From Clostridium sp. DSM 17811 (lineage in GTDB: Bacteria > Bacillota > Clostridia > Clostridiales > Clostridiaceae): 64,000 nt of DNA. The number at the start of each line of letters is the position of its first letter. Positions within the stretch are counted from its first letter, which is position 1. Below the pieces are notes generated by a model. It had not been told where the DNA came from. It did no database searches and saw nothing but the letters and a program-made list of their open reading frames with translations. Positions 28,090 through 51,755 of the stretch are shown here, one piece after another. The stretch covers positions 1 to 64,000 of the forward strand of contig NZ_JAHLDU010000005.1 of assembly GCF_018861905.1 (NCBI RefSeq), in the 5' to 3' direction. Position numbers and translations under genes: made by a program.

Positions 28090-28092
28090 GTG

Positions 28093-32300: not shown

Positions 32301-32332
32301 GATTACTGTGATGAGAGCCTAAAAGTTAAGTT

Positions 32333-32428: not shown

Positions 32429-32433
32429 ATATT

Positions 32434-32465
32434 AAAGGCTCTAGCTATTTTGCTGAAGCCTTTTT
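32434..32465 (+). terminator. terminator after the tRNA-like remnant
   Basis: AAAGGCT (32434-32440) pairs with AGCCTTT (32457-32463) with an inner AGC/GCT pair and T run. Confidence 0.7.
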
Positions 32466-32589
32466 AGTAGTTTTTTGTTAGAAATAGATTTGTGATGCCA
32501 GTATGTACATCTTGTACTAGAATTTAAAAAGCAAATATGGTCATAGGTTTAAAGAAAATATATTAGAATAAAGCAAGGCTATAAAAATT

Positions 32590-33048: not shown

Positions 33049-33226
33049 GTAATAGTACCCCCTTTTGTATAAATGCCATTAAAAAAAATTTTATATTTTT
33101 TGTTTAGCTATTTTGATTATACAAGTATGTATTTAAATTTACAATATTATTAAAAAAAATTGGACTATATTAATACATTAATCTACTAATATCTGTTTAT
33201 TATGTTTACAATATGTAGAAATGATG

Positions 33227-33235
33227 TGGTATAAT
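33227..33235 (+). promoter_or_regulatory. extended -10 promoter of the LXG operon
   Basis: TGGTATAAT (33227-33235) with TTTACA at 33205-33210 (19-bp spacing). It lies 55 bp before the first gene. Confidence 0.55.
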
Positions 33236-33289
33236 GTTAAGAAAGATGAGTAAAATTGTAAAAAAAGCACGAATTTAGAGTTTCTTATT

Positions 33290-34486: not shown

Positions 34487-34490
34487 GATT

Positions 34491-34796
34491 GTGGCAGAGG
34501 GTAGCATTATTATTAAACCAGAAGATTTGCAGAAAGAGATAGATAATAGCAGAAAAACAAATGGAGAAGTTAAAGCTTTAAAATATGATATTGATAAAGG
34601 AAATATACATCTTCAAAGTATGGATATGTTTTTAGAATGTTTAGGTGCATTAAATGCAGCTATAGTAAAGTTTGCAGAAATTACAGAAGTCGATTTACAT
34701 AGTTTAGAGATAGTTAAAGCTACGTGGATGAAACTTGATGAGGAGCTGGCATCTAAAACAACTCTTGATAGGGTAACGGACGCATTTGGTAAATAA
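34491..34796 (+). CDS. small helical LXG-associated protein (TIGR04197/DUF3130-like)
   Basis: 101 residues from GTG 34491 with AGGAGA upstream. It has two helices with a short turn, starting GSIIIKPEDLQKEID and containing LNAAIVKFAEITEVDLHSLE. Size, position directly before an LXG gene and helical-hairpin pattern match the Lap1-type targeting partners of type VII LXG effectors. These partners bind the LXG helix bundle and carry the export signal (family knowledge). Confidence 0.6.
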   Translation: MAEGSIIIKPEDLQKEIDNSRKTNGEVKALKYDIDKGNIHLQSMDMFLECLGALNAAIVKFAEITEVDLHSLEIVKATWMKLDEELASKTTLDRVTDAFGK

Positions 34797-34841
34797 GATA
34801 ACATATTAATAGTATTTTTAAAGCTTAAAGGTGGGATTTGA

Positions 34842-36284: not shown

Positions 36285-36305
36285 AAATAATGGAGAGTGA
36301 TTAAA

Positions 36306-36749
36306 ATGGAAAAACTTAGTAAGCTATTGTGGATATTTGCTATAATAGAAGTTAGTGCAACATTATTGAATCCTTATGTTGGTTTTTTTGGATTCTTTAA
36401 TGTAATAGAGCTATTTTTTATGTTATTCTTATTCTTTTATATTAATAGTTTAGTTAAAGTAAATAAATCCAATAAAGATAGTGAAAACAAAGTGTTTAAA
36501 GCAACAATTAAACCATTAGGTATCGTAGCATACATTTTACCTGTTATATTTTTCTTGTTAAAAATATTTGTAGGTTTAGGCTCATTTATATTAGCATATT
36601 CTGATCATCAAGTAATGGCACCTTATCAAGTTTGGAGTAATCCAAATCAAATGAGTGTAGTGTGTTTAATAGTAGAAATGATTTTTAATGTATTATTATT
36701 GATATCATTTATAGGCAAAGGGAAAATTATAAGAAGGATGGCGAAATGA
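36306..36749 (+). CDS. four-helix membrane protein, candidate immunity protein
   Basis: 147 residues from ATG 36306 with GGAG ten bases before (an in-frame GTG at 36297 is too close). Four hydrophobic segments: LWIFAIIEVSATLLNPYVG, IELFFMLFLFFYI, VAYILPVIFFLLKIFVGLG and VCLIVEMIFNVLLLISF. No known domain. Placement right after an LXG effector is where immunity genes occur. Overlaps the next gene by four bases. Confidence 0.6.
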   Translation: MEKLSKLLWIFAIIEVSATLLNPYVGFFGFFNVIELFFMLFLFFYINSLVKVNKSNKDSENKVFKATIKPLGIVAYILPVIFFLLKIFVGLGSFILAYSDHQVMAPYQVWSNPNQMSVVCLIVEMIFNVLLLISFIGKGKIIRRMAK

Positions 36750-37234
36750 ATACAAATAAAGGGAGATATACTAAATTAAATATACAATGTTTTATAACTA
36801 TATTAATTTCTATAATAATTGGATTTTTAAATCCTTATGAATATAATATGACTATCATCTATAACTTTTGGTATGCTTTACCTATGTTTATTTACTTCAT
36901 ACTTATAAAAATAGCAAGAAAAATTCCAGAAAACACTGGTTTAAATGGTGGAGTGAAAAATTATTTTAATTGGTGTATCAATATTTTGGAAAGTAAGAAA
37001 CTAAAAATATTTATGATAGGAGCACTATGTTTTTTAAAAATTATATGCTTTGCTATTCAGTACACGATGTATTCAGGTAAAGTAAAATCAGAAATAAATT
37101 TTTTGCAAAATACATTTCTGCTCGATAATGCATTATTAATGTTTATATTATCTACAATAGCGGAAATAGCTGTTGTAATTGTATTTAGTAAAAGAATTTG
37201 GAAAGAAATTGGACAGGGAGATGAAACTGTTTGA
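36746..37234 (+). CDS. membrane protein, second candidate immunity protein
   Basis: 162 residues, ATG overlapping the previous stop (ATGA). Four hydrophobic segments, beginning with CFITILISIIIGFLNPYEY. It shares the LNPY/FLNPYEY motif and length with its neighbour, so the two may be diverged duplicates. No catalytic motif. Immunity or effector insertion is inferred from context. Confidence 0.6.
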   Translation: MNTNKGRYTKLNIQCFITILISIIIGFLNPYEYNMTIIYNFWYALPMFIYFILIKIARKIPENTGLNGGVKNYFNWCINILESKKLKIFMIGALCFLKIICFAIQYTMYSGKVKSEINFLQNTFLLDNALLMFILSTIAEIAVVIVFSKRIWKEIGQGDETV

Positions 37235-37653
37235 AGTTGTTAGAAGATTTGAAAATGGATGTAGAGGCATATAAAAAAAATCTTAGTGAAGAAGCCTCTA
37301 TGATGGAAGCAAATCAAAAAAAAGCGGATGCTCTAGATAGTTTATATAAAAAAATGAAAGAAAAGAAAGAAGATATGGAATCTTTACAAAAGTCATTAAG
37401 TACTTTTGCAAATGAAACATATGAATGTTGGCTAGGAAATGTATTTAATACTAGATATGAGAAGAATGTAACAGAGGAATTACTTGTAAATGGTTATGGC
37501 AAGATGTTGACTATAATTGATGATAATTTAGATGAAATAAATAATAAAAGAACACATTATGAAAATTTAATTTATGAATCTAAAGGAATAATAGGTAATG
37601 TAGAGTCATGTATAAATTCTGTTACAACGCATATTGAAAATTGGGTAAACTAG
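37231..37653 (+). CDS. WXG100-like helical protein, LXG partner
   Basis: 140 residues from TTG 37231, overlapping the previous stop (TTGA). GGGAG lies ten bases upstream. An ATG at 37258 is an alternative start. Coiled-coil helix (SEEASMMEANQKKADALDSL), then a W-x-G turn in ECWLGNVFNTRYEKN, then a second helix, as in WXG100/DUF5082 proteins. It likely acts as an export partner in the type VII pathway. No T7SS core (EssC) gene is in the window. Confidence 0.65.
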   Translation: MKLLEDLKMDVEAYKKNLSEEASMMEANQKKADALDSLYKKMKEKKEDMESLQKSLSTFANETYECWLGNVFNTRYEKNVTEELLVNGYGKMLTIIDDNLDEINNKRTHYENLIYESKGIIGNVESCINSVTTHIENWVN

Positions 37654-37665
37654 GAAGTGATTAAA

Positions 37666-38112
37666 GTGGCAGTTAAAATAAAAATAGCTAAAGAACAGGA
37701 AAGACAGTTAAAAGATAATGATATTAAAAAGGAAGTTGAAGAAGTACAAAAATTCTTTAACACAGCTGATTTTGAATATTCTGAAGGAACAATCAATTTT
37801 GTAATGTTAAAAGGTATATATTCTCATATAAAAAGATCAATGCTTATAATTGGAGTATTTGTAAATAAAACAGATAGTTGTGTTAATGGAATAAAGAGTG
37901 AATTAGATTTAAAATTTAAAGATATTGATGCAAAAATAATGTCTACTAATATAGAGTTCCCTAAAGAGTTTATAGGAAAACTTGATGTAGATGAAGGATT
38001 GCTTATTCATATAGATATTCCGGTAATTGGGCTAAAGAAAGATGATGAATTTGATATAAGAGATATAAGTGGTGAATTAAATAATGTTAAGCTTATTAAT
38101 GATAAAAGGTAG
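37666..38112 (+). CDS. unknown protein, last gene of the LXG operon
   Basis: About 148 residues from GTG 37666, chosen because AGGAAGTGA at 37652-37660 suits it better than the GTG at 37657. Mixed alpha/beta, soluble, charged. KRSMLIIGVFVNKTD and IHIDIPVIGLKKDDEFD are the most regular stretches. I recognise no domain. By spacing it belongs to the same transcript as the LXG effector. Confidence 0.6.
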   Translation: MAVKIKIAKEQERQLKDNDIKKEVEEVQKFFNTADFEYSEGTINFVMLKGIYSHIKRSMLIIGVFVNKTDSCVNGIKSELDLKFKDIDAKIMSTNIEFPKEFIGKLDVDEGLLIHIDIPVIGLKKDDEFDIRDISGELNNVKLINDKR

Positions 38113-38264
38113 TTTCTTATTATAGGGGAACCCTTGGAGTACAGAAGATCTAATTATAAATTGTTTTTTAGGATTTTTCCTCATCAGTTGTTTAGAGGGA
38201 TGTTTATATAGAATTTGAAAATTACACAATTATACTCAATATTAAATGCATTTATACAATTCCA

Positions 38265-38389
38265 TTCTTTCAATGGACAGTGATATAGGTAGGTACGGTT
38301 CGCCTCCACCAGACAAAACAACAATATTGATACAATGGAAAACCCTTGAATTCAAGGGTTTTTGTTGTTTTTTGGAGATTTTTGAGTAG
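38265..38389 (+). repeat. direct repeat copy 1 with ssrA 3' end (att-like remnant)
   Basis: About 85% identical by eye to 51631-51755. It contains TCGCCTCCACCAG (38300-38312), which is identical to the last 12 bases of ssrA plus the next base. It is followed by an intrinsic terminator (AACCCTTGAATTCAAGGGTT then T-rich). The layout is that of an attachment site left by elements integrating into the tmRNA 3' end. Confidence 0.8.
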
Positions 38390-38511
38390 AATTATTTATT
38401 GATGCAAGTAATGATTTTGGAAAGGCTAAGAATCAAAATAACTTAAATGATCAAAACATAGATAAAATCATCAATACATTTAAAGAACGTAAAAATTTAG
38501 ATTTTTGGTAG
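38386..38511 (+). pseudogene. C-terminal fragment of type I restriction methyltransferase HsdM
   Basis: The frame reads LFIDASNDFGKAKNQNNL, then NDQNIDKIINTFKERK and a stop. This is the conserved 3' end of HsdM (FIDAS..F.KGKNQN.L...I.KI...). Nothing of the rest of the gene, nor hsdS/hsdR, is present. It abuts the att-like repeat. Confidence 0.75.
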
Positions 38512-38621
38512 TGGGAAGGTGAGATTTTCACTTTCTCACATTTGATTTGTTCGTGGATAACATGTTTTGACATATTTAGAGTTGTGACAGTCACCAGTGC
38601 GAACGGAGTGAGTACTTTTTA

Positions 38622-38649
38622 TTGACATTAGCGAATTATGTTATATAAT
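38622..38649 (+). promoter_or_regulatory. strong promoter of the chemosensory operon
   Basis: Consensus TTGACA (38622-38627), 16 bp, consensus TATAAT (38644-38649). No other strong promoter is obvious before the first gene 260 bp later, and spacing inside the operon is short. Confidence 0.75.
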
Positions 38650-38912
38650 TTACTATAATGTGACATTTAAGTAGCTGATAGCATATATTAACAGGATGTT
38701 GACACTAGGTTCTACATAAAGAGCGAAGGTAGTGTATTACTAAAACTATTTTATAATTACATACGTTTTTGAATTTTATTAAATATAACCAAATTTGGTA
38801 CAAGTATGTAGATCTATCTCGTGAATGCAGTTTGAAAGTATTAAGCATATTGTAGAAGCATAGTAAAAATAAGAGTTTGAGTAGATTTGTGTAACATGGA
38901 AGGGGAATACAT

Positions 38913-39272
38913 ATGACTAAAGTATTAATTGTAGATGATGCTGCATTTATAAGGGCGCAACTCAAGCAATTGCTTCAAAGTAATGATTTTGAGGTCGTAG
39001 GTGAGGCTGAAAATGGAAAGGTAGCACTAAGAAAGATTCAAGAACTGAGACCGGATATAGTTACACTTGACATAACAATGCCTATAATGGACGGACTTGA
39101 ATGTATGATGGAGATAAAAAAAATGGACTATGTTCCTGTGGTTATAATGATTTCAGCACTGGGACAGGAAGCTTTTGTACAGAAGGCCATTTTAAATGGA
39201 GCAAAAGGATTTTTGGTTAAGCCATACAAAAGTGAAGTGGTGATAAAGAATCTGAATAAGTTTAAAAAGTAA
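38913..39272 (+). CDS. cheY: CheY-type response regulator
   Basis: 119 residues, a receiver domain only. Acidic pair D8-D9, phosphoacceptor D53 in TLDITMPIMDG, Ser in VVIMISALG and the conserved Lys in GFLVKPY are all present, so it should be phosphorylated by CheA. AAGGGG precedes the start. First gene of the operon. With no flagellar gene near, its output target may be flagella elsewhere or something else. Confidence 0.92.
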   Translation: MTKVLIVDDAAFIRAQLKQLLQSNDFEVVGEAENGKVALRKIQELRPDIVTLDITMPIMDGLECMMEIKKMDYVPVVIMISALGQEAFVQKAILNGAKGFLVKPYKSEVVIKNLNKFKK

Positions 39273-39385
39273 ATAATGAAGAGAGCCTATCATAGATGGC
39301 GTGAATATGATTGTATAATTTATTATCCAGAGCATGAAAAAGACATTAAATAAAACGATTTAAAATTTTAGGGGGCAAAATTATT

Positions 39386-41332
39386 ATGGAAAAAAAACTT
39401 GCAAAACCTTCAAATAGTAGAATAGAAAAGGTAACAGCACGTGTGTTGACACCTGCAACGGATGAAATGGAGAGAAAGAGAGAAATTGCGAGAAGACAGG
39501 CACAGGACAAGGTGAGGGCAAGAACTATGGCAAAACAACAGCAATTAGCAGAAAGAATTGCTGTAGCAACAGAGCAAATGGCGTCAGGGATAGAAGAGGC
39601 AAGCAGTGCAGCGGAAGAACTAGGATCTACAATGCAACAGATTGCTAGCGGAGCCACTGAAACTGCTTCTGCAGCCGAGCAATCAAGAGCAGCAATTAAT
39701 CAAGTGGATAAAGCATCAGTTATTGCTGATAAGAATGCAAAGGATTCCCTTGAAAGAGCGGAAATAGCAAAAGATCTAATACAAAACACATCAAAGGACA
39801 TAGAACTTATGATTAAGGGTATCAAAGAATCTGCCGAGACGAATATGGAATCAGTAAAACTTATTGGTGAACTGGAAAAACAGTCGAATGAAGTTGGTGA
39901 AATTGTACAAGCTGTTGTGAGAATTGCTGACCAGACCAATCTTTTAGCATTAAATGCAGCTATAGAAGCAGCAAGAGCTGGTGAACATGGTAAAGGCTTT
40001 GCAGTAGTAGCAGATGAAGTTAGAAATCTTGCAGAGACATCAGAGAAGTCAGCTAGAAACATTAAAGAATTAGTAAATGAGATTCAAAGCAATGTGAAGG
40101 TTGTAGTAGTTGATATAGAGAACGCAGGTAAGGTAGCAAATGATGAGGTTGAAAATGCAAAGAAGACTACAGCAGACCTTGTTAAGATTAATGAAGAAGT
40201 TGTCTTAGTCATGAAAGGAATAGTAGAAGTATCCCAGAATGCAGTAGATGCAAACAAGGGAGCAGTGGATTTTTTGGATATTGCTGAACAAATTGCAGTA
40301 GCTGCAGAGCAACAGGGCAGTGCTGCAGAAGAAGTTGAAAGGTCAATTCAAATGCAGAACAAGGCATTTAATGAACTGAATGCTGGTGCAGAAGACTTGA
40401 CTCAAATGGCAGAGGATTTGAAGGCTTCTACGGATGCTCAGAAGTCTTCTGAATCTATGGCAGCAGCTTCTGAAGAGTTATCAGCCAATGTTGAGGAAGG
40501 GAACTCTACTTCAGCAGAGATATTAAAGGCTATGGAGCAAATATCCTCAGGAGCGCAGGAGCAGGGCGACCTTACGGATAAAGCTGCTGTGCTTGCTGAA
40601 AAGCTTGCTGTAGCTTCAAAGCAAATGAGTGAAAGATCAGGTTTCTCTGCAGATAAGATATCTGAGCTGCAAAAACTGTTAGAAACCAATAAAATTGCAC
40701 TTGATAATATGACCACGGGTATATCTAGCTCAGCACAGATTTCAATGGTTGCAGCCAAAAATATCAAAAGTCTTGAAGAAACCACTAGAAGAATTGATAA
40801 AATTGTGGATGCAATAGTAAATGTTACTATACAGACAAATATGCTAGCAGTAAATGGTTCTATTGAAGCAGCAAGGGCAGGAGAATTCGGAAGAGGCTTC
40901 TCTGTAGTTGCAGTTGACATAAGAGCTCTTGCTAATGAATCAGCAGAAAATACAGACAAGATAAAAGACCTTGTAAGAGGTATCCAAAACCAAATTCAAA
41001 GGGTTTCAGCGGATACGGACCTCTCTAGTAAAAATTCCTTCGCAGAAGTGGAGGAAGCAAAAAAAACCACACATAATCTTAATATTATTGAAGATAATAT
41101 GATAAAAATGCTTACAGGAGCAAATGAAATTCAGAGGAGTTCAGATGAGTCTCTTATAGCTCTAGAGCAGGCAAAAAAAGGTGTAGATCAGATCGCAGCT
41201 GCAGCACAGGAAGCAAGTAGTGCAGCACAACAGGCATCAAATGCAGCTTCTGAACAGTCAAAAGGAATGCAGGAATTGGCTGAGGCTATTGAAGAGATAT
41301 CTGGTTTAGCTGATGAACTGCAAAATATGTAA
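39386..41332 (+). CDS. soluble chemoreceptor with two tandem signalling domains (DosM-like)
   Basis: 648 residues, no membrane helix, no ligand-binding domain and no HAMP. After a highly charged basic N-terminus (1-60, [20 protein letters not shown]) come two full MCP hairpins. The first tip is at about 178-215 ([20 protein letters not shown]), the second at about 475-515 ([20 protein letters not shown]), ~300 residues apart. Ala/Ser/Glu-rich adaptation helices surround both, so methylation by the neighbouring CheR/CheB is likely. Such a double receptor (Vibrio cholerae DosM) is known to stabilise cytoplasmic arrays. AGGGGG precedes the ATG. Confidence 0.92.
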
Positions 41333-41350
41333 AGAAGGGAGGGAATAGTT

Positions 41351-42826
41351 ATGGCTACTGGTATAAACAATGCTATCGTTACAGAGCGCCAGCTAGTTAC
41401 CTTCCTACTTGGAGAGGATGAGTTTGGCGCTGATATAATGGATGTTAAAGAAATTATAAGGGTTCCTGATATCACCAAGGTACCCAATGCACCAAACTAT
41501 CTGGAAGGTGCTTGCAACTTGAGAGGTAATGTATTACCTATTATAGATGGAAGAACCAGGTTTAACTTAGAAAGAAAATCGAAAGATGAAACCAGCAGGA
41601 TCCTTGTCATTGATGTGGAGGGTAAAGCTACAGGAATGCTTGTCGATAAGGTATCTGAGGTAATTAGAGTAGCTACTGACAATATAGAAGAACCACCCCA
41701 TATTGTTAAAAATGTGGATTCTGACTATTTAAATGGTGTTTTGAAGCTTAATAATGGAACGCGGCTTGTAATGATTTTAGATGTTGTAAGAGCTTTAAAT
41801 GTCAATGGTACCGTTAAACAGCTGAAAAAAAATCAGGCCCAAAGTTCTCAGAATAACAGTACCTTAGTAAAGAACGTTAGTGCTGACTCTATAGATGTGG
41901 AGCAACTAGTTTCATTTCTCTTAGATAAAGAGGAATATGCTATTGGAATCATGAAAGTAAAAGAAATTATACGTGTACCTCAAGTTGTAAAGATTCCAAA
42001 TTGTGAGGCCTATATAGAAGGAGTAGTTTCATTGCGAGATAATTTGCTTCCAATTATAAATTTAAGGACTTATTTTGGAATGGAACAAATGGAAATCGAT
42101 GACCATACCAGAATACTTGTAATAGATATGGGTAGTTTCAGTGCTGGAATTATGGTGGACAAGATCTCAGAAGTTTTGAAGGTACCAACAAATATTATTC
42201 AGCCACCTCCGAAATTCTCATCCCAAAGTGGGGAACAGCTTAAAGGAATTGCAAAGCTAAATAATGGTAAACGAATGATACTAATTCTTGAACCTTCAAA
42301 ATTAGTATCAGAGGACGAATTAAGTGCAATTAGTGGTGTAAATGGAACTCATAAACAAGGTAATGAGGAGAGAGGTATTACTACACAGTTGATTGAGGAA
42401 GAGCAATTGGTTACCTTCAAAATAGATGTGGAAGAGTATGGAGTTAAGATAGCTAATGTTCAGGAAATCAATAGGATGCCAGAAGTTACTAAGGTACCTA
42501 GGGCTCCATATTTTATAGAAGGGATTGTAAATCTAAGAGGCAATGTTATCCCTGCTCTGGATTTAAGAAAGCTCTTTAGTTTTCCACAAAAACCGGTAAC
42601 GGATGCTACAAGGATTATCATAGTTGATTTTAATGGGAAAAGAACAGGAATTGTGGTAGATTCAGTATTGGAAGTTCTCAGGTTTGAAAAAAACCTTATA
42701 GAGTCTCCGCCAGATATATTGAGCAGTGGAATAGACAGCGACTATGTAGAGGGTGTTGGTAAGCTGGAAGGTGGAAAAAGAATAATTTTAATTCTTGATA
42801 TTAGTAAGGTGCTGAGTTTTAGCTGA
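41351..42826 (+). CDS. triple-domain CheW coupling protein (first)
   Basis: 491 residues, three CheW domains in series: about 12-150, 178-320 and 350-488. Each begins with a phrase such as LVTFLLGEDEFGADIMDVKE and has the hallmark NAPNYLEGACNLRGNVLPII or EAYIEGVVSLRDNLLPII, with EGIVNLRGNVIPALDLRK in the third. CheW bridges receptor tips and CheA. Three linked copies could tie neighbouring units. Starts 18 bp after the receptor with GGGAGG. Confidence 0.95.
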   Translation: MATGINNAIVTERQLVTFLLGEDEFGADIMDVKEIIRVPDITKVPNAPNYLEGACNLRGNVLPIIDGRTRFNLERKSKDETSRILVIDVEGKATGMLVDKVSEVIRVATDNIEEPPHIVKNVDSDYLNGVLKLNNGTRLVMILDVVRALNVNGTVKQLKKNQAQSSQNNSTLVKNVSADSIDVEQLVSFLLDKEEYAIGIMKVKEIIRVPQVVKIPNCEAYIEGVVSLRDNLLPIINLRTYFGMEQMEIDDHTRILVIDMGSFSAGIMVDKISEVLKVPTNIIQPPPKFSSQSGEQLKGIAKLNNGKRMILILEPSKLVSEDELSAISGVNGTHKQGNEERGITTQLIEEEQLVTFKIDVEEYGVKIANVQEINRMPEVTKVPRAPYFIEGIVNLRGNVIPALDLRKLFSFPQKPVTDATRIIIVDFNGKRTGIVVDSVLEVLRFEKNLIESPPDILSSGIDSDYVEGVGKLEGGKRIILILDISKVLSFS

Positions 42827-42935
42827 ATTTATGCGTCTATATAGGTGATGATTAATGAGGGTGTACACAAAGTATTAATAAAATTTATGCTTTGTGTATG
42901 CCTAATTTATATAATAATTACAAGAGGTGATGGGC

Positions 42936-44015
42936 GTGAACGACAAAATAAAAGTATTGATAGTAGATGACTCAGCTCTTATGAGAAGGGCACTGAAAGA
43001 GATAATCATGACTGACCCAAGTCTTGACGTGGTGGGAACTGCAAGAGACGGTCAGGATGCAATTGAAAAGGTCCATGAATTGAATCCGGATGTGGTTACC
43101 ATGGATATCAATATGCCGGTTATGGATGGGTTGACCTCCATGCAATATATACTCAGTGATTACCCACAAATGCCTATTTTAATGGTGAGCTCTCTTACAG
43201 AAGAAGGTGCAATGACTACTTTTGAGGCGTTAGAACTTGGTGCTTTTGATTATGTTGCAAAACCTTCAGGAACTGTATCTTCTAATATTCATATAGTTGG
43301 TAGGGAGATAATACAAAAAATAAAGCTAGCTTATAAAAATGTAAATAAGAAAAGTATAAGAGATAGAATACAAAGGCGTAGTAGCAGTGTTTCTTCAAGG
43401 AGACTTGGAGCCGTAAAGAAACCAGACATCTCAGAAACTATGGGACTGTCAAAAGTGGTTGTGATAGGCATTTCTACAGGCGGGCCTGGAACTCTCATGG
43501 AGGTATTGCCGTTGCTTCCAGAGGATCTGAAAGCCGCTGTAATTATAATACAACACATGCCTCCATCTTTTACCGCTTCTTTTGCAAAAAGATTAGATGG
43601 TGCTTGCCGTATTCCAATCAAGGAAGCAGATGCAGGTGACGTTCTCCAAAATGGTAGAGGATTTCTTGCTCGTGGAGGATATCAGTTGGTGGTAAGGGGA
43701 GAGAAAGGTACCTTAAGACTTCCAAGTAATCCTAAAACAATGTTTATGCCCTCAGTAAATGTAACTATGGAATCTGTGCTTGAAGCTTATGGTGGGAAAA
43801 ATGTAATCGGTGTTTTAATGACAGGAATGGGGGACGATGGAGCTGATGCTATGGTAAAGATACGACGCGCAGGAGGCATTACCATCGCTGAGGATGAATC
43901 TACGGCAGTGGTTTTCGGTATGCCAAGGGAAGCAATAGAAAGAGGCGGTGCAGAAATAGTGCTACCCTCTTATAAGGTAGCAGATGCAATAATAAAAGCA
44001 GTGAAAAGAACTTAA
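42936..44015 (+). CDS. cheB: chemoreceptor glutamate methylesterase CheB
   Basis: 359 residues from GTG 42936 (AAGAGGTGAT just upstream; GTG 42927 and ATG 42930 are too close). Receiver domain: KVLIVDDSALMRRALKEI, with MDINMPVMDGL. Methylesterase domain: the catalytic Ser in IGISTGGPGTLMEVLP, His in IIQHMPPSFTASFAKRLD and Asp in GVLMTGMGDDGADAM. It removes receptor methyl groups when phosphorylated. Confidence 0.97.
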   Translation: MNDKIKVLIVDDSALMRRALKEIIMTDPSLDVVGTARDGQDAIEKVHELNPDVVTMDINMPVMDGLTSMQYILSDYPQMPILMVSSLTEEGAMTTFEALELGAFDYVAKPSGTVSSNIHIVGREIIQKIKLAYKNVNKKSIRDRIQRRSSSVSSRRLGAVKKPDISETMGLSKVVVIGISTGGPGTLMEVLPLLPEDLKAAVIIIQHMPPSFTASFAKRLDGACRIPIKEADAGDVLQNGRGFLARGGYQLVVRGEKGTLRLPSNPKTMFMPSVNVTMESVLEAYGGKNVIGVLMTGMGDDGADAMVKIRRAGGITIAEDESTAVVFGMPREAIERGGAEIVLPSYKVADAIIKAVKRT

Positions 44016-44051
44016 GGTATAAGATTTCTATTTATTGTAGGGAGGATTCTA

Positions 44052-44462
44052 ATGAAGTATAAATATAAGATTCTAATAGTTGATGAACAAGACGAAGTAT
44101 TAGTCACACTTAAAAAACAGCTAGAGCAGGAAGGTTATAAAGTTGAAACTACCCAAAGTGACGCTGAGGCATTTGAAAAAATAAAGGGTGACAAGTACCA
44201 TATTGTATTAATAGATATTGCGATGCCAGAGATAGATGGACTTCAACTTTTAAGGGAAATAAAAAAATATGATCCAATGACACAGGTTATAATGATGACA
44301 GAGCATTCAACTATGGATAAAATACTAAGCTCTTTAGAGTATGGAGCTAATGATTATATAAATGAGCCTTTAAAAAGTACAGAGTATGTCATAAGTGTCA
44401 TTGATTATTCAGTACAAAAGCTGGAAAGATGGAGAACGGCCATAATACAAATAGTTAAATAA
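44052..44462 (+). CDS. atypical response regulator receiver
   Basis: 136 residues. Acidic residues D11-E12 and phosphoacceptor D55 (VLIDIAMPEIDG), T83 present. The invariant Lys of the K-P motif is Glu (E105 in YINEPLK). Loss of this Lys usually weakens phosphorylation-driven switching, so it may act as a phosphate sink or a constitutive binder. GGGAGG precedes the start. Followed 18 bp later by the Hpt/STAS protein, its likely partner. Confidence 0.88.
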   Translation: MKYKYKILIVDEQDEVLVTLKKQLEQEGYKVETTQSDAEAFEKIKGDKYHIVLIDIAMPEIDGLQLLREIKKYDPMTQVIMMTEHSTMDKILSSLEYGANDYINEPLKSTEYVISVIDYSVQKLERWRTAIIQIVK

Positions 44463-44480
44463 TTTTAGGGGGTGAGTTTA

Positions 44481-45935
44481 GTGGATGAGATGATGCAGTT
44501 ATATATGGAAGAAACGGAAGATATGCTGCAAAGGGCAGAAGAATGTATAATACGACTCGAAATGGAATACTCTGATCTTGACGTTAATGAGTTGTTCAGA
44601 ATAGCACATACTATAAAAGGATCTTCTCATATGGTAGGGTATGAGAAGATTGGAAATCTTATGCATAAAGTTGAAGATATGCTGGATTGTGCAAGGAATG
44701 GCTCAATTATTTTTGATCAGAGTATTGTATCGCTATGTTTTGAAGGTTTGGATACCGTTAAAAAGATGCTTTTATATAAAAAAGATCAGGGATCTAAGGA
44801 AATTATGGAGAATCTTGTAAGTGATGCTATCAGAATTAAAGAAATGATTGAAGTTTTTATAAGAGTTAATAAGAAGGTAGAAGAAAAGACTATTATAAAG
44901 CAGTCTGAGCCTGGAATTATTTCTTCTTACTTAAGTAAAAAAGTTAAAGGAGAAAATAAGTATTATATAACCTTCTTTTTTGAAGAGGATATACCTATGG
45001 TATCCCCAGTAATACTAATGATATTAAATAGTGCTCAGGATATTGGATCTCTTGTATATTCAAGTATTGGTGACAATTATTTTTTGGAAAGTTCATGTGA
45101 TAATGATATAAAAACTTTTGAAATTATTATATCCACAGATATCGACGAGAATGAACTGTATACATATTTTGCTTTATTTTATATTGAAAAAATAAACATA
45201 GTGGATCTAAGTAGAAGTAAGGTGGCAGAAAAGGACTATAGTTTTATTGATGATGACAATAATTTGTATATAATTATTCTTAAGGCAGTTATGAAGTTAT
45301 ATAAAATAGCATTTAGTATGTCTAAAGAATTTAATATAAGCAAGGAAGATATTTACATAATAACACCTTTACACCATGAAGCTGTAAAAGCATTTAGTAG
45401 ATTGAAAAACAAAAATAAAATTGATAATTTTATTACAGATTTCAATGAAATATACAACGATGTCATTAGGCTATATGAGGATGGAGTAGAGCTAAATCAA
45501 AAAAAAAGCAACCATATCCAAACGCAGGTGATAAAGCTAATGGAAAGAGCTTATAACTATACAAAAGGCAAGTATATATTCAGTATTTTTAAATCTCAAA
45601 AGGAGAACTTTATCAGTGGACTTAAGGATTTCATTGGGCTATTAAACAAGTCTTCAACTTTAATACTTCTTATTGATTTAAGTAGACTTACAACATTGAA
45701 TGAAAATGAAGTGAAAGATTTGATAGAAATAAAAAAAGAGATAAAATTAGAGAATATAGAGTTAGGTATCATAGTAGTGGGACCTGAGGGTAGAAGAATA
45801 ATTAATATTTTTGATTCTATAAAACAGATTGAGGAATTTAATGTGTTTGGATCAGAGATTCATGGAATTTTAGGCATTTTTAATTCTGAGGATTCTTTCA
45901 ATAGAATTAGTGAAAGGGTAAAGGGGATAAAATGA
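44481..45935 (+). CDS. Hpt-domain protein with CheA P2-like and STAS-like domains, no kinase
   Basis: 484 residues from GTG 44481 (AGGGGGTGA upstream). Residues 1-110 form an Hpt domain with phospho-His 43 (FRIAHTIKGSSHMVG). About 145-240 resemble a CheA P2-type domain (YYITFFFEEDIPMVSPVILM). A long middle is unassigned. The last ~105 residues look STAS-like (SSTLILLIDLSRLTTLNENE, GIIVVGPEGRRIINIF). No ATP-binding domain. It would be a phosphate relay or sink between CheA and the receivers, with a STAS output. Overlaps cheR by four bases. Confidence 0.75.
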   Translation: MDEMMQLYMEETEDMLQRAEECIIRLEMEYSDLDVNELFRIAHTIKGSSHMVGYEKIGNLMHKVEDMLDCARNGSIIFDQSIVSLCFEGLDTVKKMLLYKKDQGSKEIMENLVSDAIRIKEMIEVFIRVNKKVEEKTIIKQSEPGIISSYLSKKVKGENKYYITFFFEEDIPMVSPVILMILNSAQDIGSLVYSSIGDNYFLESSCDNDIKTFEIIISTDIDENELYTYFALFYIEKINIVDLSRSKVAEKDYSFIDDDNNLYIIILKAVMKLYKIAFSMSKEFNISKEDIYIITPLHHEAVKAFSRLKNKNKIDNFITDFNEIYNDVIRLYEDGVELNQKKSNHIQTQVIKLMERAYNYTKGKYIFSIFKSQKENFISGLKDFIGLLNKSSTLILLIDLSRLTTLNENEVKDLIEIKKEIKLENIELGIIVVGPEGRRIINIFDSIKQIEEFNVFGSEIHGILGIFNSEDSFNRISERVKGIK

Positions 45936-46756
45936 TATTATCTGATGAAGTATTTGATAAATTTATAAAATTGATTTACAAAAGAACAGGATTATATTAT
46001 GAAAATAATAAAAAGTATTTTGTACAAAAGAGAATTGAGAAGCGTGCAGAATTAATGGAAATGGAAAATTTAAATGAGTACTTCAGGCTGGTGAAATTTG
46101 GAGTGGACTCCTTTGAGTTTTATAAATTAATCAACGACCTTACTGTAAATGAAACTTATTTTTTTCGGGATTTTCCTCAATTGCGTAATTTTGCAGAGGA
46201 TGTACTACCGATAGTTACAAAAGATAAAGGAAACAGCAAAAAAATAAAAATATGGTGTGCAGCTTGTGCTACAGGAGAAGAACCCTATACTTTGTTCATT
46301 ATTCTTCAGGAAATGCTTGATAAACCGGAAGAATGGGAAATTCAGATAATTGCTTCCGACATAAACACTGAAGTGCTACAAAGTGCAAAAAGGGGAATCT
46401 ATGAAAGTAGAGCTATAAAAGATGTTCCTCCTGAGTACCTAGAGAAATACTTCACAAAGCGTAAAGAGAAGTACCTTGTCAATCTGAATGTGAGAAAATC
46501 GGTAACTTTTAAACGAATTAATCTCATGGATGAATACGAGATGAATAATATTGATGGCTGTGATTTTATATTTTGCCGGAATTGTTTGATATATTTTGAT
46601 GATGAGTCAAGAAGAAATGTTTTGGCTAGTTTTTATGAGTCTTTGAATCCAGGTGGATTTATGTTCCTCGGACATTCAGAATCTGTGGGAAGGATTTCTT
46701 CTGCCTACAAAGTTAAAAGAATAGGGGACACAATAACATATTCAAGACCTAAATGA
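45932..46756 (+). CDS. cheR: chemoreceptor methyltransferase CheR
   Basis: 274 residues. N-terminal helical domain with VNETYFFRDFPQLRNFAEDV. SAM-binding domain has IWCAACATGEEPYTLFIIL and IIASDINTEVLQSAKRGIY. The C-terminal FCRNCLIYFDDESRRNVLAS completes the family pattern. It methylates receptor Glu residues opposite to CheB. Its start is at the ATGA overlap with the previous gene. Confidence 0.97.
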   Translation: MILSDEVFDKFIKLIYKRTGLYYENNKKYFVQKRIEKRAELMEMENLNEYFRLVKFGVDSFEFYKLINDLTVNETYFFRDFPQLRNFAEDVLPIVTKDKGNSKKIKIWCAACATGEEPYTLFIILQEMLDKPEEWEIQIIASDINTEVLQSAKRGIYESRAIKDVPPEYLEKYFTKRKEKYLVNLNVRKSVTFKRINLMDEYEMNNIDGCDFIFCRNCLIYFDDESRRNVLASFYESLNPGGFMFLGHSESVGRISSAYKVKRIGDTITYSRPK

Positions 46757-46772
46757 GAGGAGGAGAAATCTA

Positions 46773-49046
46773 GTGAAAAACCCTAAAAAGAAAATACTGG
46801 TAGTGGATATTATGTGCAGCAAAATTTATATAGAAGATCTTGATGTGCTAAAAATGTTTGTCGATAAGTGGGTGAAATATCTTAAGGGACTTGAGAAGGA
46901 AATACTGAAGCTGGAACTTCATTCAAAAGATAATGAATTACTCAATAATATTGTTGAATGTGCCCACAGTATAAAGGGAGGTTCATCTTTTGTAGGGTTA
47001 TGGAGCATTACAAGACTAAGTTATGAGATGGAAATTACACTTGAAGCTATAAGAAACTTAAAGTTGACAGTAAACACTGGGCTGATTGATAGTATGCTTT
47101 TGTATGTAGACTTTTTAAATGATTATATAAAAAATTTGTTAAAAGTATTAAAGAAACAAGATGTTAAGACTGAAAATGGGATTAGGTATCTGGAGCTTAA
47201 ATATGATCATAAGGAAGAATTGGTACTTAAAAGTTTAAAGATGTCATTTGAAAATTGTGAAGCAAAGGACACAGAGGGCAGCAATACTCAGCAAGAAACA
47301 TTGGAGGAAGAGAGAAGTTTAGATATCCTAGAGTCAGAGGAATTTAAGGTTGGTCTAGCTAATGGAATTAAAGAGCAGTTTATCATTGAAAGTACAGAAC
47401 ATATTGAGAGAATGGAAAATGATTTATTAATGCGACTCGATACTAATAGTGATGATAGGGAAGCCATAAATGAAATATTTAGATCTATCCACAGTGTTAA
47501 GGGTGGAACAGGAATATACCTTGCAGTTTTGACTACTCAGAGTAGCCTTTATATAGGTTTAACAGATTTTTTAGAAGTTGTGCATACTTTTGAAAGCTTA
47601 TTAACTTTGATAAGGGATAAAGAATGTAATTTTGAAAAAAATCTGCTGGATTTAGGTTTTATGGTAATGGATTATTTAAAGTCTTTCATAAATTCTGTTG
47701 ACTCAGAAGAATTTATGAATATTGATAATAATGTAATTATACAAAAAATTAAAGAAGAGATATTGAATATTGGGGAATTATCTAGTTCTTTAGTACAAAC
47801 TACTAAGACAACAACAGCGCAAGAAGTGAATAAAGTGGAGGAGTCGAGATCAAAAGGCAGCATAAACCAGAGCATTCGGGTTAATCAGGACAAACTGGAT
47901 AAAATGATGAATACTATTTCAGAGCTTATAATTGCAAAAAACTCTTTTATGCACATATCTGCAAAACTCAATGTGGAGTATAACCTGTCCGAAATGTCCA
48001 AGGAAGTAAAGCAGGTAGGAACTTATGTAAATAGAATTTCTGAAGAACTTCAGAATGAAATTATGTCTATAAGAATGGTAGAAATTAAAACGGTGTTTCA
48101 AAAGATGCCTAGGGTAATAAGGGATATTGCTCAGAGTACTGGTAAGAAGATGGAATTATTTATGGAGGGTGGGAATACTGAAATTGATAAAACAATTATC
48201 GAGCAGATCAGTGACCCTTTAGTACATTTAATACGAAATTCAGCAGATCATGGTGTTGAGGATACTGAGGAGCGTCTATCTAAAGGAAAACCTGAAACCG
48301 GAAGTATCATACTTAGAGCCTATAACAAAAACAAACATGTATTTATTGAGATAGAAGATGATGGGAAGGGAATTGATAAAGATAATATAAAGAAAAAAGC
48401 AATAGAAAAAGGCATTGTTTCTGAAGAAGAAGCGGTCAAAATGAATGAGGCGCAACTAATAAACCTTATTTTCCTTCCGGGTTTCAGTATGGCAAAAAAG
48501 ATTACAGAAATATCAGGTCGAGGGGTTGGGATGGATATTGTTAAAAGTAACATATCCAAAATCAATGGGAAAATTATTATTGAGAGTGAAGTGGGTAAAG
48601 GAACAAAAACTACTATTCAATTACCTCTTACACTGGCAGTTTCACGAGGCTTGACTGTAGAGGTAGATGGCGAAACCTACATTTTTCCTCTGGAGTATAT
48701 AGTTGAAACAGTAAAAATTAGTAGAAACGATATTCATAAATTTAATGGAAAGTTTTTTACCTATTTAAGGGGAGAGGCCATTGGAATTGAATGGCTCAGT
48801 AAGATTTTCCTTATGGGGGATAGAGATACTGAAAGTGAAGAAGTAAGTGCTGTAATTTTATCTAGGGGTGCAGAAAATTACGCAATTGCTGTAGATAAAC
48901 TTAAAAATGAACAGGAATTTGTAGTAAAGACATTAGAGGGGCATCTAGCGGATATTCCTGGAATATCCGGTTCAACGTTACTTGGAAATGGACAAGTAGT
49001 CTTGATAGTTAATCCTGTTGATATATTGCAACTTGTGGAAAAATAA
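46773..49046 (+). CDS. cheA: chemotaxis histidine kinase CheA with two Hpt domains
   Basis: 757 residues from GTG 46773 (GAGGAGGAG upstream). First Hpt at about 10-125 with His in AHSIKGGSSFVG near residue 64. Second Hpt at about 195-310 with SIHSVKGGTGIY near residue 239. P3 dimerisation follows (LDKMMNTISELIIAKNSF). P4 kinase includes DPLVHLIRNSADHGVED, then ADDGKG-like EDDGKGID, then SGRGVGMDIVKSN. P5 is a CheW-like end (GLTVEVDGETYIFPLEYIVE). No P2 domain lies between Hpt and P3, but the preceding Hpt protein carries a P2-like one. All kinase boxes are intact. Confidence 0.95.
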   Translation: MKNPKKKILVVDIMCSKIYIEDLDVLKMFVDKWVKYLKGLEKEILKLELHSKDNELLNNIVECAHSIKGGSSFVGLWSITRLSYEMEITLEAIRNLKLTVNTGLIDSMLLYVDFLNDYIKNLLKVLKKQDVKTENGIRYLELKYDHKEELVLKSLKMSFENCEAKDTEGSNTQQETLEEERSLDILESEEFKVGLANGIKEQFIIESTEHIERMENDLLMRLDTNSDDREAINEIFRSIHSVKGGTGIYLAVLTTQSSLYIGLTDFLEVVHTFESLLTLIRDKECNFEKNLLDLGFMVMDYLKSFINSVDSEEFMNIDNNVIIQKIKEEILNIGELSSSLVQTTKTTTAQEVNKVEESRSKGSINQSIRVNQDKLDKMMNTISELIIAKNSFMHISAKLNVEYNLSEMSKEVKQVGTYVNRISEELQNEIMSIRMVEIKTVFQKMPRVIRDIAQSTGKKMELFMEGGNTEIDKTIIEQISDPLVHLIRNSADHGVEDTEERLSKGKPETGSIILRAYNKNKHVFIEIEDDGKGIDKDNIKKKAIEKGIVSEEEAVKMNEAQLINLIFLPGFSMAKKITEISGRGVGMDIVKSNISKINGKIIIESEVGKGTKTTIQLPLTLAVSRGLTVEVDGETYIFPLEYIVETVKISRNDIHKFNGKFFTYLRGEAIGIEWLSKIFLMGDRDTESEEVSAVILSRGAENYAIAVDKLKNEQEFVVKTLEGHLADIPGISGSTLLGNGQVVLIVNPVDILQLVEK

Positions 49047-49078
49047 GATTTTTACTGGTTTTAGAAGGAGGTATAAGC

Positions 49079-49855
49079 ATGGAGAAAAAGCTTGAGAAAT
49101 ATGCTGTATTAAATAACAAGGGAGGTGTGGGTAAAAGCACTATTGCCGTGAATATTGCACATGGTCTTGCTATAGCAGGTAAAAAAGTATTACTTATAGA
49201 TATGGATGGACAAAATGATGCAAGCCTCTTCCTTGGGTTTAATCAAGAAGATTATAAAAACAGCTTATATGATATTATAGTTAAACATGAAGATACCTGT
49301 ATTAGTGATTGCATAATCAAGGCAAGAGATAATTTGGATTTACTACCTTCAAGATATGTTGACCGAATCAATGAAGAACTTTATAAAGAACCTAGTATAA
49401 GATCGTTTTTTAATGATAAATTCAAGGGATTAGAGAAGCTTAATTATGACTATGTGATTGTAGACTGTGGACCCCAGCGATGCAAGATCAATGATGCGGT
49501 TTTGTATTTTGTAGATGGTATTATAGTGCCAGTTCAGGTAGAAGCTGCATCTGTAAGAGCTATAGGAAATATTTATGAGTACCTTTTTGACTTGCACTTG
49601 GATCAAAGTATGATTTCTCTTGTGGTACCCAATATGTTTGATAAGAGAACCAGTGATGGTAAGGAAAATATGGAGTTTATGAAAGAATTTTTTTCTGATA
49701 CGGATATATTAACAGCACCTATTCATCGAAGAATTAAAATTACCGAAAGCGGTAAGATGGGGAAAACAGTTTTTGAATGTGATGAAGAGTCTTCAAAGCA
49801 ATTTGAGCATATAGTTGAAAGGCTGGTGAGTATCCATGGCAGTAAAGGTTGTTAA
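49079..49855 (+). CDS. ParA-family ATPase of the chemosensory cluster
   Basis: 258 residues. Deviant Walker A NNKGGVGKSTIAVNIA, switch I region LIDMDGQNDASLFLGF and Walker B VIVDCGPQRCKINDA. AAGGAGG precedes the ATG. The position between cheA and a CheW gene, far from the replication origin genes and without parB, matches ParC/PpfA-type ATPases that position chemosensory arrays before division. Its 3' end overlaps the next gene by 20 bases, so the two are translated together. Confidence 0.88.
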   Translation: MEKKLEKYAVLNNKGGVGKSTIAVNIAHGLAIAGKKVLLIDMDGQNDASLFLGFNQEDYKNSLYDIIVKHEDTCISDCIIKARDNLDLLPSRYVDRINEELYKEPSIRSFFNDKFKGLEKLNYDYVIVDCGPQRCKINDAVLYFVDGIIVPVQVEAASVRAIGNIYEYLFDLHLDQSMISLVVPNMFDKRTSDGKENMEFMKEFFSDTDILTAPIHRRIKITESGKMGKTVFECDEESSKQFEHIVERLVSIHGSKGC

Positions 49856-51440
49856 AAAAAGCTCGGATAACTTTGAAAAGATGAAAAGAGAAATGACTGC
49901 AAAAAAACAGAAGGCTAAGATGAAGCAAGAGCAAGTTACTTCGCAGATAGACATAGAAAACAAGGATTGCTTAATGCAGAAACAGGACCAATGCATAAAG
50001 ACAGGGATAGAAACTATTACAGCTGTAAAGAAAATTGAAGTTATAGTATTTAAGGTGGATGAGGAAGAATTTGCATTAAGAATATCTTATATAAAAGAAA
50101 TTATTAGAGTTCCAATACTTCAGAAAATTCCAAATGCACCACAATATATAACTGGCTTATGCTGCCTAAGAGGTGATTTGCTTCCTGTTATTGATAGTAG
50201 AAAATTGTTCAATATGCCTCATAAGGAATTTGATGACTGCAGTAGAATTATTGTTACAGATATCCACGACAAAAGGATCGGACTTATATGTGATAAGGTT
50301 TCGGAAGTAATAACTGTTGAAGAGTCAGCTATTAAAGAGCCACCCAGTAGCATTAAGGGGATTGATGGTGGAGTTATAAATTCTATTCTCATACTCAATA
50401 ATGGGAAAAGAGTGGTGATGCTTCTTGATGCTGAGAAAATCACAAAAGCTTACGACCTTTCTGATGTAGCAAAAGAGCAACATAGGTCTGCGGACAATTT
50501 AGAAGGCAAAGAAAAAGAAGAAGAAGAGCAAATTATCATATTTAATATTGGCGTAGGAGAGTATGGATTCAACATTAATTATGTAAAGGAAATAATAAGG
50601 TTGCCAGCAATAATGAAGGTGCCTAATACACCTAGTTTCATTGAAGGGGTATTTTCTATCAGAAATCAGCTTATAGCAGTTGTTAATCTAGGCAAACTTC
50701 TTGGTATGGATTTCAAACAGCCTGACGAGTATAGTCGTGTGGTAATTATAAACAATGGTAGCTTTTCATTTGGAATAATAGTTGATAAAGTATCACATGT
50801 TATGGTGGTTGCTAAGAGATTATTTAAAAAGAGCAATGAGATTACCAATAGTTTCTATGTCCAAGGAATTTACAATCTGAATAAGGGCAAAAGATTGATA
50901 ATAATGCTGGAGCCGCTTAAACTTATTAGTTCTGAGGAGACTAGAGGTGTTGTAGGTATTGATCTCAAAGAAGGTGTAAAGGACAAATCATTAAATGTAA
51001 GTGATGAAGATAATAATTTTGAACATATCGTGATTTTTAAACTGGACGAAGAAGAATACGGAATAAAAATTAGCAATGTACAAGAAATCAATAGAATGAG
51101 CGAAATAACTCATATTCCTGGTGCTCCTGTTTTTATTAACGGTATGGTTAATTTGCGAGGAGATATAATACCAATATTAAATCTTAGAAAACTGTTCACA
51201 GCTCATGATTCAGGTTCTTATTGTGAATCCAAGTTTTTAGTTGTAGAGTTCAAGAAAATGAAAATAGGTATCATGATAGACTCAGCTTCTGAGGTTTTAA
51301 AGGTTTCAAAAAATTATCTTGAAGAAGCATCGGAAGTATTTGATAGAAATAATAGCTATATAGACAAAATAGCAAAACTAAATAATGGAAAGAGAGTTGT
51401 TTTAATTTTGAATCTTAGAGCTGTGCTAAGTTTTATGTGA
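49836..51440 (+). CDS. triple-domain CheW coupling protein (second)
   Basis: 534 residues. A basic N-terminal tail of ~65 residues (KMKREMTAKKQKAKMKQEQV) precedes three CheW domains at about 68-205, 228-365 and 395-532. Hallmarks: NAPQYITGLCCLRGDLLPVI, TPSFIEGVFSIRNQLIAVV and GAPVFINGMVNLRGDIIPIL. The first CheW triple lacks such a tail. The start overlaps parA. Last gene of the operon. The tail is a candidate ParA-contact region because many ParA partners use short basic N-termini. Confidence 0.93.
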   Translation: MAVKVVKKSSDNFEKMKREMTAKKQKAKMKQEQVTSQIDIENKDCLMQKQDQCIKTGIETITAVKKIEVIVFKVDEEEFALRISYIKEIIRVPILQKIPNAPQYITGLCCLRGDLLPVIDSRKLFNMPHKEFDDCSRIIVTDIHDKRIGLICDKVSEVITVEESAIKEPPSSIKGIDGGVINSILILNNGKRVVMLLDAEKITKAYDLSDVAKEQHRSADNLEGKEKEEEEQIIIFNIGVGEYGFNINYVKEIIRLPAIMKVPNTPSFIEGVFSIRNQLIAVVNLGKLLGMDFKQPDEYSRVVIINNGSFSFGIIVDKVSHVMVVAKRLFKKSNEITNSFYVQGIYNLNKGKRLIIMLEPLKLISSEETRGVVGIDLKEGVKDKSLNVSDEDNNFEHIVIFKLDEEEYGIKISNVQEINRMSEITHIPGAPVFINGMVNLRGDIIPILNLRKLFTAHDSGSYCESKFLVVEFKKMKIGIMIDSASEVLKVSKNYLEEASEVFDRNNSYIDKIAKLNNGKRVVLILNLRAVLSFM

Positions 51441-51463
51441 AAGTAAGTGCATACTTTAGTAAT

Positions 51464-51500
51464 CAGTAAATGAAGACCACCTTTTTCTATTCATTTACTG
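51464..51500 (+). terminator. hairpin closing the chemosensory operon
   Basis: CAGTAAATGAA pairs exactly with TTCATTTACTG over a 15-base loop holding five T. There is no T-run after it, so it is a moderate candidate. Confidence 0.45.
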
Positions 51501-51630
51501 GAATTGGGTTAAGATAGATCCATATTTAAACTAAAATCTCTTTCAGACATAGCAAAAACATCTAAACTATAATTTGTACGCCCCATAACGTATTAAAAAA
51601 TGCCTGTAGTTTTAGTATTGTATAACATGT

Positions 51631-51755
51631 TTCTTTCAATGGACAGTGATAAATTAGATACGGTTCGCCTCCATCATACAAGAATAACAATTTTGATACA
51701 ATGGAAAACCTTTGAAATTCAAGGGTTTTGTTGTTTTTTGGATTTAATAGAGTAG
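51631..51755 (+). repeat. direct repeat copy 2 with ssrA 3' end (att-like remnant)
   Basis: Shares TTCTTTCAATGGACAGTGAT, TACGGTTCGCCTCCA and TTGATACAATGGAAAACC with copy 1. It holds TCGCCTCCATCA (51665-51676, one mismatch to the ssrA end) and a similar terminator. The two copies are 13.4 kb apart and bracket the chemosensory operon. Confidence 0.8.

Follow-up and report, generated by a model that had tools for sequence, protein, structure and literature searches.

How does a complete chemosensory operon come to lie between two copies of the 3′ end of a tmRNA gene? The question is raised by a 64,000-bp stretch of Clostridium sp. DSM 17811 (the window; bases 1–64000 of contig C5 in a 5.19-Mb draft genome of 98 contigs, G000), in which a first-pass annotation had described a ten-gene che operon with its own ParA between two direct repeats of about 120 bp, downstream of an intact ssrA gene. 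We consider it fairly likely that the operon belongs, as cargo, to an array of integrations at the ssrA 3′ end, an accreted module without an integrase, and that it encodes an F9-type chemosensory array spread by ParA. The comparisons covered 17 genomes of the genus (own genome included) and 206 of the family, the repeat search 40 genomes, and the ssrA region was fetched from 14 genomes as stretches of unequal length. G001, G003 and G004 are the closest relatives, with RNase R identities of 98–99% to the window genome; C. bowmanii DSM 14206, of the same genus, is G005.

Attachment-type sites at the 3′ end of ssrA

The two direct repeats are real. Over about 125 aligned bases they are 84% identical in a pairwise alignment and 87% identical in the whole-genome search (E 9e-34). 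The intact ssrA gene was found about 10 kb upstream, and its 3′ end, TCGCCTCCAYCA, is present in both repeats as the annotation had claimed, with a single C/T change in the right copy; the ssrA 3′-end repeat at the two boundaries measures 12 bp with one mismatch. Each repeat consists of a first half of about 36 bp that contains GGACAGTGATA (half1), an 11-bp core CGCCTCCAYCA, and a second half (half2), about 75 bp long, in which there is an inverted repeat resembling a hairpin. The core pattern occurs ten times in the 5.19-Mb genome, several of these occurrences being plainly unrelated to attachment (att) sites, and the reversed pattern occurs once. The segment between the repeats, here called the che block, lies 10.2–23.6 kb downstream of ssrA on the same strand. 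Of the 17 genus genomes, 15 matched the repeat, and of all 40 genomes searched, 18 did, the window genome being counted in each case; within the genus, G009 and G013 gave no match to the repeat query.

The anatomy of these sites can be read from an apparently intact element in C. bowmanii. There, ssrA is followed by the core, an arm and a serine recombinase gene (a 523-aa open reading frame (ORF) on the reverse strand), and 65.6 kb further on by half1-core-half2. Within the arm beside ssrA stands ATATCACTGTCC, which is the inverted counterpart of half1. In 100 kb of this genome the 11-mer GGACAGTGATA has a single occurrence, as does its reverse complement, and these lie at the two ends of the element. 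Half1 would accordingly be an element arm. G003, too, has a serine recombinase gene directly beside ssrA. In G006 and on contig C12 of the window genome, displaced ssrA 3′ fragments are adjoined by serine recombinases that are short or broken, with open frames no longer than about 330 residues. Since other arms are joined to the same core and half2 in G001, G004 and G015, the ssrA site may serve more than a single integrase family.

Directly 3′ of ssrA, two of the 14 genomes (G002 and G016) carry half2, in the order ssrA-core-half2, nine carry a GTRAAACCC-type terminator or a close variant of it, two (G005 and G009) carry an arm bearing CACTGTCC, and one (G003) carries another sequence. A diverged half2 follows ssrA in G018 and G036, which belong to other genera. 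Because half2 adjoins ssrA in these four genomes, we infer that it is probably the native ssrA flank. Further half1/half2 sites lie downstream of ssrA in 10 of the 14 regions, a count limited by sequence span, as G003, G009 and G011 are short downstream of ssrA.

These arrangements suggest the following mechanism. Elements with a serine recombinase would insert at the core, each insertion leaving ssrA intact and displacing the native half2 outward, so that the far end of the element would become half1-core-half2 (attR). The che block would lie between two such junctions. It most likely arrived as an accreted module without an integrase, mobilised together with a neighbouring recombinase element whose recombinase would have been lost later. 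The left-site half2 is 94% identical to the displaced ssrA flank of G006 and 83% identical to the right site of its own genome, which weakly suggests that it came from elsewhere.

The repeats could instead belong to a dispersed, terminator-like family unrelated to ssrA integration, as the inverted repeat in half2 and the core-less half2 copies on C12 and in relatives might indicate. This is very improbable: the core is the ssrA 3′ end itself, half2 is the immediate neighbour of ssrA in several genomes, on C12 and in G006 it is preceded by displaced fragments of the ssrA 3′ end, and sites of this kind have recombinase genes next to them. This evidence largely contradicts the dispersed-repeat reading, which we rejected as the principal explanation.

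Presence and absence at the locus

The proposal that the layout reflects tandem integrations is borne out by the behaviour of the region in close relatives. The window is 94% identical to G004 over 51680–52991 and 96% identical to G001 over 51789–54860; by blast, colinearity starts at 51680 and 51789, respectively, and the G001 alignment extends to the core despite an insertion in G001. To the right of 51676 the sequence is common to the window genome, G001 and G004 (RNase R 99%), whereas to the left all three are unrelated. The first-pass annotation had proposed to look for clean junctions in relatives; on the right, different cargo ends at such a junction, with the breakpoint at the core in G001 and at half2 in G004, where the core is missing. 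The interval from ssrA to the junction holds the che operon and a preceding block (block A) in the window, about 10.5 kb of other genes in G001 (some defence-like, as judged by reading), and about 33 kb in G004, with a type I restriction-like system (by reading) and matches to tyrosine and serine recombinases. No che operon was found in G001 or G004, so the che block is absent from this place in these close relatives. Neither of the two findings that the annotation had named as refuting was obtained: the block does not recur here in all close relatives, and the repeats are linked to ssrA. Among the relatives compared, no truly empty ssrA site was seen, and the left junction is not comparable. 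Contig C12 of the window genome has a 3.9-kb module, with half2 at its start, in common with the G004 ssrA array (95% identity), and this suggests that att-bounded blocks change place or that the arrays are rearranged.

A more specific claim, that the che block had moved alone as one cassette, is not established by these comparisons. Block A is likewise without a match in the fetched stretches of 13 other ssrA-bearing genomes (except for AbiE genes at 46–50%), and the size of the inserted unit is therefore ambiguous: it could be the 13.4-kb che block or about 23.6 kb, block A included. The cassette claim also lacks support in that no integrase was found in the block and the C. bowmanii operon is unflanked by att sites. 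The annotation saw no integrase in the window, and none was found here. At E 1e-5, no serine recombinase (PF07508) was found on the contig of the window, all five matches in the genome being on C3 and C12, and no tyrosine integrase (PF00589) was found in the window among the matches listed, by reading of ORFs or by Pfam on 18 window ORFs. Putative att-type sites at both ends and no integrase found between them is the make-up of a cis-mobilisable element (CIME), whose excision and transfer would depend on a neighbour.

Distribution and origin of the operon

Matches to the ParA of the operon occur in two of the 17 genus genomes (E 1e-30), one of the 15 without a match being only 51% complete, and matches to its CheW3a protein occur in the same number of genus genomes and in six of the 206 family genomes (E 1e-60). 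We used CheW3 as the marker of the operon, since ParA is misleading outside the genus; it was rejected as a marker there, as 11 family genomes have a ParA match and in 8 of these the gene that follows encodes a small protein lacking CheW similarity (neighbourhoods seen over about 1.5 kb on each side). The second genus member is C. bowmanii, whose operon sits away from ssrA. Homology to it falls into four blocks of 81–90% nucleotide identity from 38900 to 51442, that is, the operon itself, and the flanks are unrelated. When the 12.5-kb operon DNA was searched for che relics in the genus, the matches listed beyond the operons of the window genome and C. bowmanii were confined to query positions 980–1190, which fall inside the receptor gene. 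Against plasmid and phage collections, che DNA (41351–48500) gave one short match each, covering 1% and 3% of its length.

Loci in Petroclostridium (L098), Lutispora (L099) and two metagenome-assembled genomes (MAGs; L094 and L096) also contain the operon, whole or in part. At these four loci CheA is 64–67% and CheR 76–80% identical to the window proteins, and RNase R is 56–58% identical. CheW3a is 74–75% identical to that of Lutispora and a Bacillota MAG but 57–61% identical to those of the four family members outside the genus that have one (G062, G117, G121 and G137), whereas RNase R, at 56–58% for the former, is 65% identical in G062, the one of the four in which it was measured. Horizontal transfer would thus explain the distribution of the operon better than descent. 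The scan returned nine loci, of which L093 is C. bowmanii; kept out of the identity ranges were L095 (a 6.8-kb contig; CheA 71% over 448 residues, ParA 72%), L097 (ParA 60%, without a nearby match to most che proteins), and L100 and L101 (ParA 26%). The stretches of the distant loci span only 10 kb upstream of ParA, and within them the receptor was seen only in L099 and high-identity CheW3a and CheB only in L096 and L099. ParA of the Lutispora locus seems to have a broken frame, and no CheW3b follows it. The operon has a GC content of 34.8%, against 28–33% in the other segments of the window genome that were measured, and the C. bowmanii operon has 35.2% against 30.2% in the rest of its fetched stretch.

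Several observations weigh against the view that the operon is cargo of ssrA integration. At the G004 junction, unrelated sequence precedes half2 and the breakpoint is at half2. The native flank is uncertain within the genus, as 9 of the 14 genomes have the GTRAAACCC-type flank after ssrA in place of half2, and a site at 64432 has a flank of this same kind. Our confidence is lowered by these two points, the missing core in G004 and the uncertain flank. Moreover, one simple insertion should have left a recombinase arm at the left end of the che block, which instead shows a half2-type sequence and a relic of HsdM; no site-specific recombinase of the kind encoded in ssrA islands was found in the block or next to it; half2 occurs without a core on C12 and in relatives; and some att-type sites are distant from ssrA or on different contigs (C12, contig C2 of G006, and G001). 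The 36 kb surrounding the C. bowmanii operon yielded no half1/half2 site, and transposase- and recombinase-like ORFs (labels by reading) lie close to that operon. Lastly, the largest block of che homology to C. bowmanii is 85% identical at the nucleotide level, about as much as RNase R (83%), and such RNase R-like divergence is compatible with common ancestry of the operon and many losses.

The last observation favours an operon that is old in the genus, located near ssrA or rearranged there, lost in nearly all relatives and bracketed by chance; att sites are frequent downstream of ssrA, so that any gene there tends to be bracketed. We regard this as unlikely, given that ParA was not found in 15 of the 17 genus genomes, G001, G003 and G004 among them, that the operon has a different location in C. 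bowmanii, that CheW3a is nearer to relatives outside the family, and that GC is raised. The operon could also have entered an existing ssrA array in another way, by insertion sequence (IS)-mediated or homologous recombination and never through att sites. In line with this, the C. bowmanii homology stops short of the att sites, the HsdM relic intervenes between left site and operon, and transposase-like ORFs accompany the C. bowmanii operon. However, no transposase or IS remnant was recognised between the att sites, where translations were only read, and the half1 element arm lies 190 bp past the last stop codon of the operon. Entry of this kind is rather improbable in our estimate, and we continue to favour arrival as cargo of the ssrA array.

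An operon with F9-like domain make-up

All ten che ORFs of the first-pass annotation were found, from 38913 to 51440, including the one for ParA (Table 1). Pfam was run on eight of them; the first response regulator and CheR were named by sequence reading, operon position and blast homology.

Table 1. Positions of the features discussed, in window coordinates
Feature	Position	Strand	Basis and remarks
ssrA, intact tmRNA gene; 3′ end is the integration site	27737..28089	+	ARAGORN, tag ANDNLQLAA; Rfam RF00023 above cut-off
Block A, from ssrA to the left att site	28090..38264	+	Pfam: HNH, SLATT, AbiEi/AbiEii, LXG protein and companions
Left att site	38265..38389	+	half1 arm 38265–38300, core 38301–38311, half2 (ssrA-flank type) to 38389
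HsdM relic (type I restriction methylase), 40 residues	38389..38508	+	PF02384, E 1.8e-6
CheY-like response regulator	38913..39272	+	ORF, reading and homology; 87% to C. bowmanii
DosM-type receptor, two methyl-accepting chemotaxis protein (MCP) signalling domains	39386..41332	+	PF00015, two stretches; no predicted membrane helix
Triple-CheW protein CheW3a	41351..42826	+	PF01584, three stretches
CheB methylesterase	42927..44015	+	PF01339 and PF00072
Response regulator	44052..44462	+	PF00072
Hpt protein	44472..45935	+	PF01627
CheR methyltransferase	45932..46756	+	Reading, operon position, homology; 91% to C. bowmanii, 76–80% to four distant loci
CheA kinase	46773..49046	+	Pfam Hpt, H-kinase_dim, HATPase, CheW; first ~11 residues from deleted CheY2 gene
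ParA-family ATPase	49079..49855	+	PF13614; related ParAs and their downstream genes
Triple-CheW protein CheW3b, basic N-terminal ParA-partner-like peptide	49836..51440	+	PF01584, three stretches
Right att site	51631..51755	+	half1 arm 51631–51665, core 51666–51676, half2 running into conserved chromosome

Judged by its domain signatures, the operon is F9-like: it encodes a DosM-type receptor with two signalling domains and concatenated triple CheW, here as two proteins of three stretches each. The receptor is without a strongly hydrophobic segment (maximum Kyte-Doolittle 19-residue mean 1.09). A DosM protein with a double signalling domain, triple CheW, CheA, CheB and CheR, and no membrane helices are shared with the F9 cluster I of Vibrio cholerae. 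Different here are the second CheW3 protein, the ParA and the host, a Clostridium relative, and the likeness is one of domain make-up. The V. cholerae F9 array is described, in the available parts of PMC7534058 and PMC9321776, as a double-layered, membrane-free sheet held by DosM. In the cell, we infer, the products of the operon would assemble into a double-layered array of this type, free of the membrane and based on the DosM-like receptor and both CheW3 proteins, with a putative signal and output.

Compared with C. bowmanii, three genes are missing from the window operon: a small one, one that is HEAT-repeat-like, and that of a second CheY (CheY2). At 46773–46810, CheA carries the start of the lost CheY2 gene as an in-frame fusion. 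Given the three missing genes and this fusion, the window operon may be a reduced version.

ParA and the N-terminal peptide of CheW3b

The ParA gene overlaps the CheW3b gene. The protein has KGGVGKST at its N-terminus, which we take to be a ParA-type Walker A motif, and solved ParA/Soj structures are among its relatives. Eight family genomes carry a ParA that is 59–62% identical, followed by a small protein without CheW similarity (L085–L092). These small proteins contain the motif NFExLKxQMxxK(K/R)xxAE near the N-terminus; L088 and L089 were trimmed before alignment, as the motif is at residue 33 of the longest ORF compared with about 12–14 in the others, and comes near the N-terminus only with a later start codon. 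Close to the ParA gene of L086 there is a Rep3 replication initiator, so that this locus may be on a plasmid.

All seven CheW3b proteins examined begin with the same kind of peptide, SDNFEKMKREMTAKKQKAK in the window and, as the loosest version, SIDKIKQEINKKKQKAI in G062; in CheW3a this basic N-terminal peptide is not present. Of 798 ORFs checked, two contain the motif pattern, and both are CheW3b, a count that serves as a check of specificity and not as an independent test, the pattern having been written after viewing the sequences. The C-terminal domain of the small partner proteins may adopt a ribbon-helix-helix-like fold, for which Pfam, NCBIfam and the PDB gave no confirmation: Pfam returned no family over the cut-off and one weak match below it (Phg_2220_C), NCBIfam one weak below-cut-off match (LexA-regulated protein), and one protein tried against PDB sequences had no match.

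Partners of ParA-family ATPases are reported, or have been suggested, to act by way of an N-terminus that is disordered and positively charged (PMC10241942, available part). As the N-terminal peptide of CheW3b matches the partners of related ParAs, CheW3b could be the ParA adaptor of the array. A nucleoid-bound ParA, stimulated by the basic CheW3b tail, would then distribute arrays to both daughter cells. Extending this, we hypothesise that the F9 array is a transferable, self-segregating organelle whose genes travel by the ssrA array. A plasmid-type ParA would have been captured by a domain swap, in which the ParA-activating N-terminal peptide of a ParB-like partner was placed on a triple-CheW scaffold in exchange for the C-terminal, probably DNA-binding, domain of the partner, and the array would be partitioned in the manner of a plasmid. 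This extended proposal is tentative, and we would sooner doubt than assert it.

Relation to known systems

The ssrA-specific genomic islands of Dehalococcoides (PMC3146451, as far as available) resemble the present array in their tandem position downstream of ssrA and in the repeats of the ssrA 3′ end that bound them. They also share, as seen in the Clostridium relatives, a serine recombinase on the reverse strand next to the ssrA junction. Many of them (15 of 31) lack integration genes, accretion has been proposed for them, and a metabolic operon is among their cargo. However, they belong to another phylum and have a 20-bp repeat, compared with 12 bp here; the crossover lies in the T-loop there, whereas here it would be in the last bases of ssrA, and the cargo here is a chemosensory operon.

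TlpT is part of the ParA-type positioning of chemosensory arrays. The positioning systems of PpfA and of ParC/ParP have in common with the che operon a ParA-family ATPase encoded with chemosensory genes and a partner with a positively charged N-terminus (PMC7534058 and PMC10241942, in part). In contrast, the putative partner tail here is on a CheW3 scaffold and resembles small proteins beside related ParAs, one of them near the Rep3 initiator. PpfA, ParC, ParP and TlpT are likened to the che ParA and CheW3b by description.

The ssrA type of island and the transfer of F9 clusters are already known; F9 clusters are reported in 64 of 2781 species, scattered and with many inferred transfers (PMC9321776, in the part available). 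The available text of that paper names no vehicle for this transfer, and an operon between att-type sites is a concrete candidate. Among the literature matches listed, there is no report of a che operon on an ssrA island or of ssrA arrays in this genus. The combination of a che operon and an ssrA array, and the ParA-tail observation, appear to be new among these matches. The passage of a membrane-free array to daughter cells could, in a testable way, be explained by the ParA and the CheW3b tail, which also suggest that a short peptide joined to a new cargo protein can make a partition adaptor. If CheW3b is such an adaptor, the array may be segregated like a plasmid.

Flanking blocks and other att-type sites

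The HsdM relic was recognised by Pfam alone; tblastn gave no match to the other fetched regions, including the HsdM-like genes of G004 and G016. Within block A, a 170-bp internal piece of ssrA (positions 116–285) is duplicated at 32129–32298 with 94% identity, beside the AbiEii gene.

A second half1/half2 array lies on contig C12 (about 23–124 kb, L009–L015). It includes the displaced ssrA 3′ fragment at 123551–123727, short serine recombinases beside two of its sites, and a prophage-like region between them. In G002, a segment of about 2.1 kb (contig C10, 506–2725, L077) runs from a core-less half2 to a full site and carries AbiEi/AbiEii-like genes, which suggests that very small cargo units exist.

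A third site of the contig, a half site of half1 and core, lies directly beyond the window end at C5:64396–64442. A kdp potassium-transport block at 54861–64903 is a second insertion relative to G001; half1, the core and a piece of ssrA flank (64396–64462) are found near its right end, and G004 has other, metabolic-looking genes at this position.

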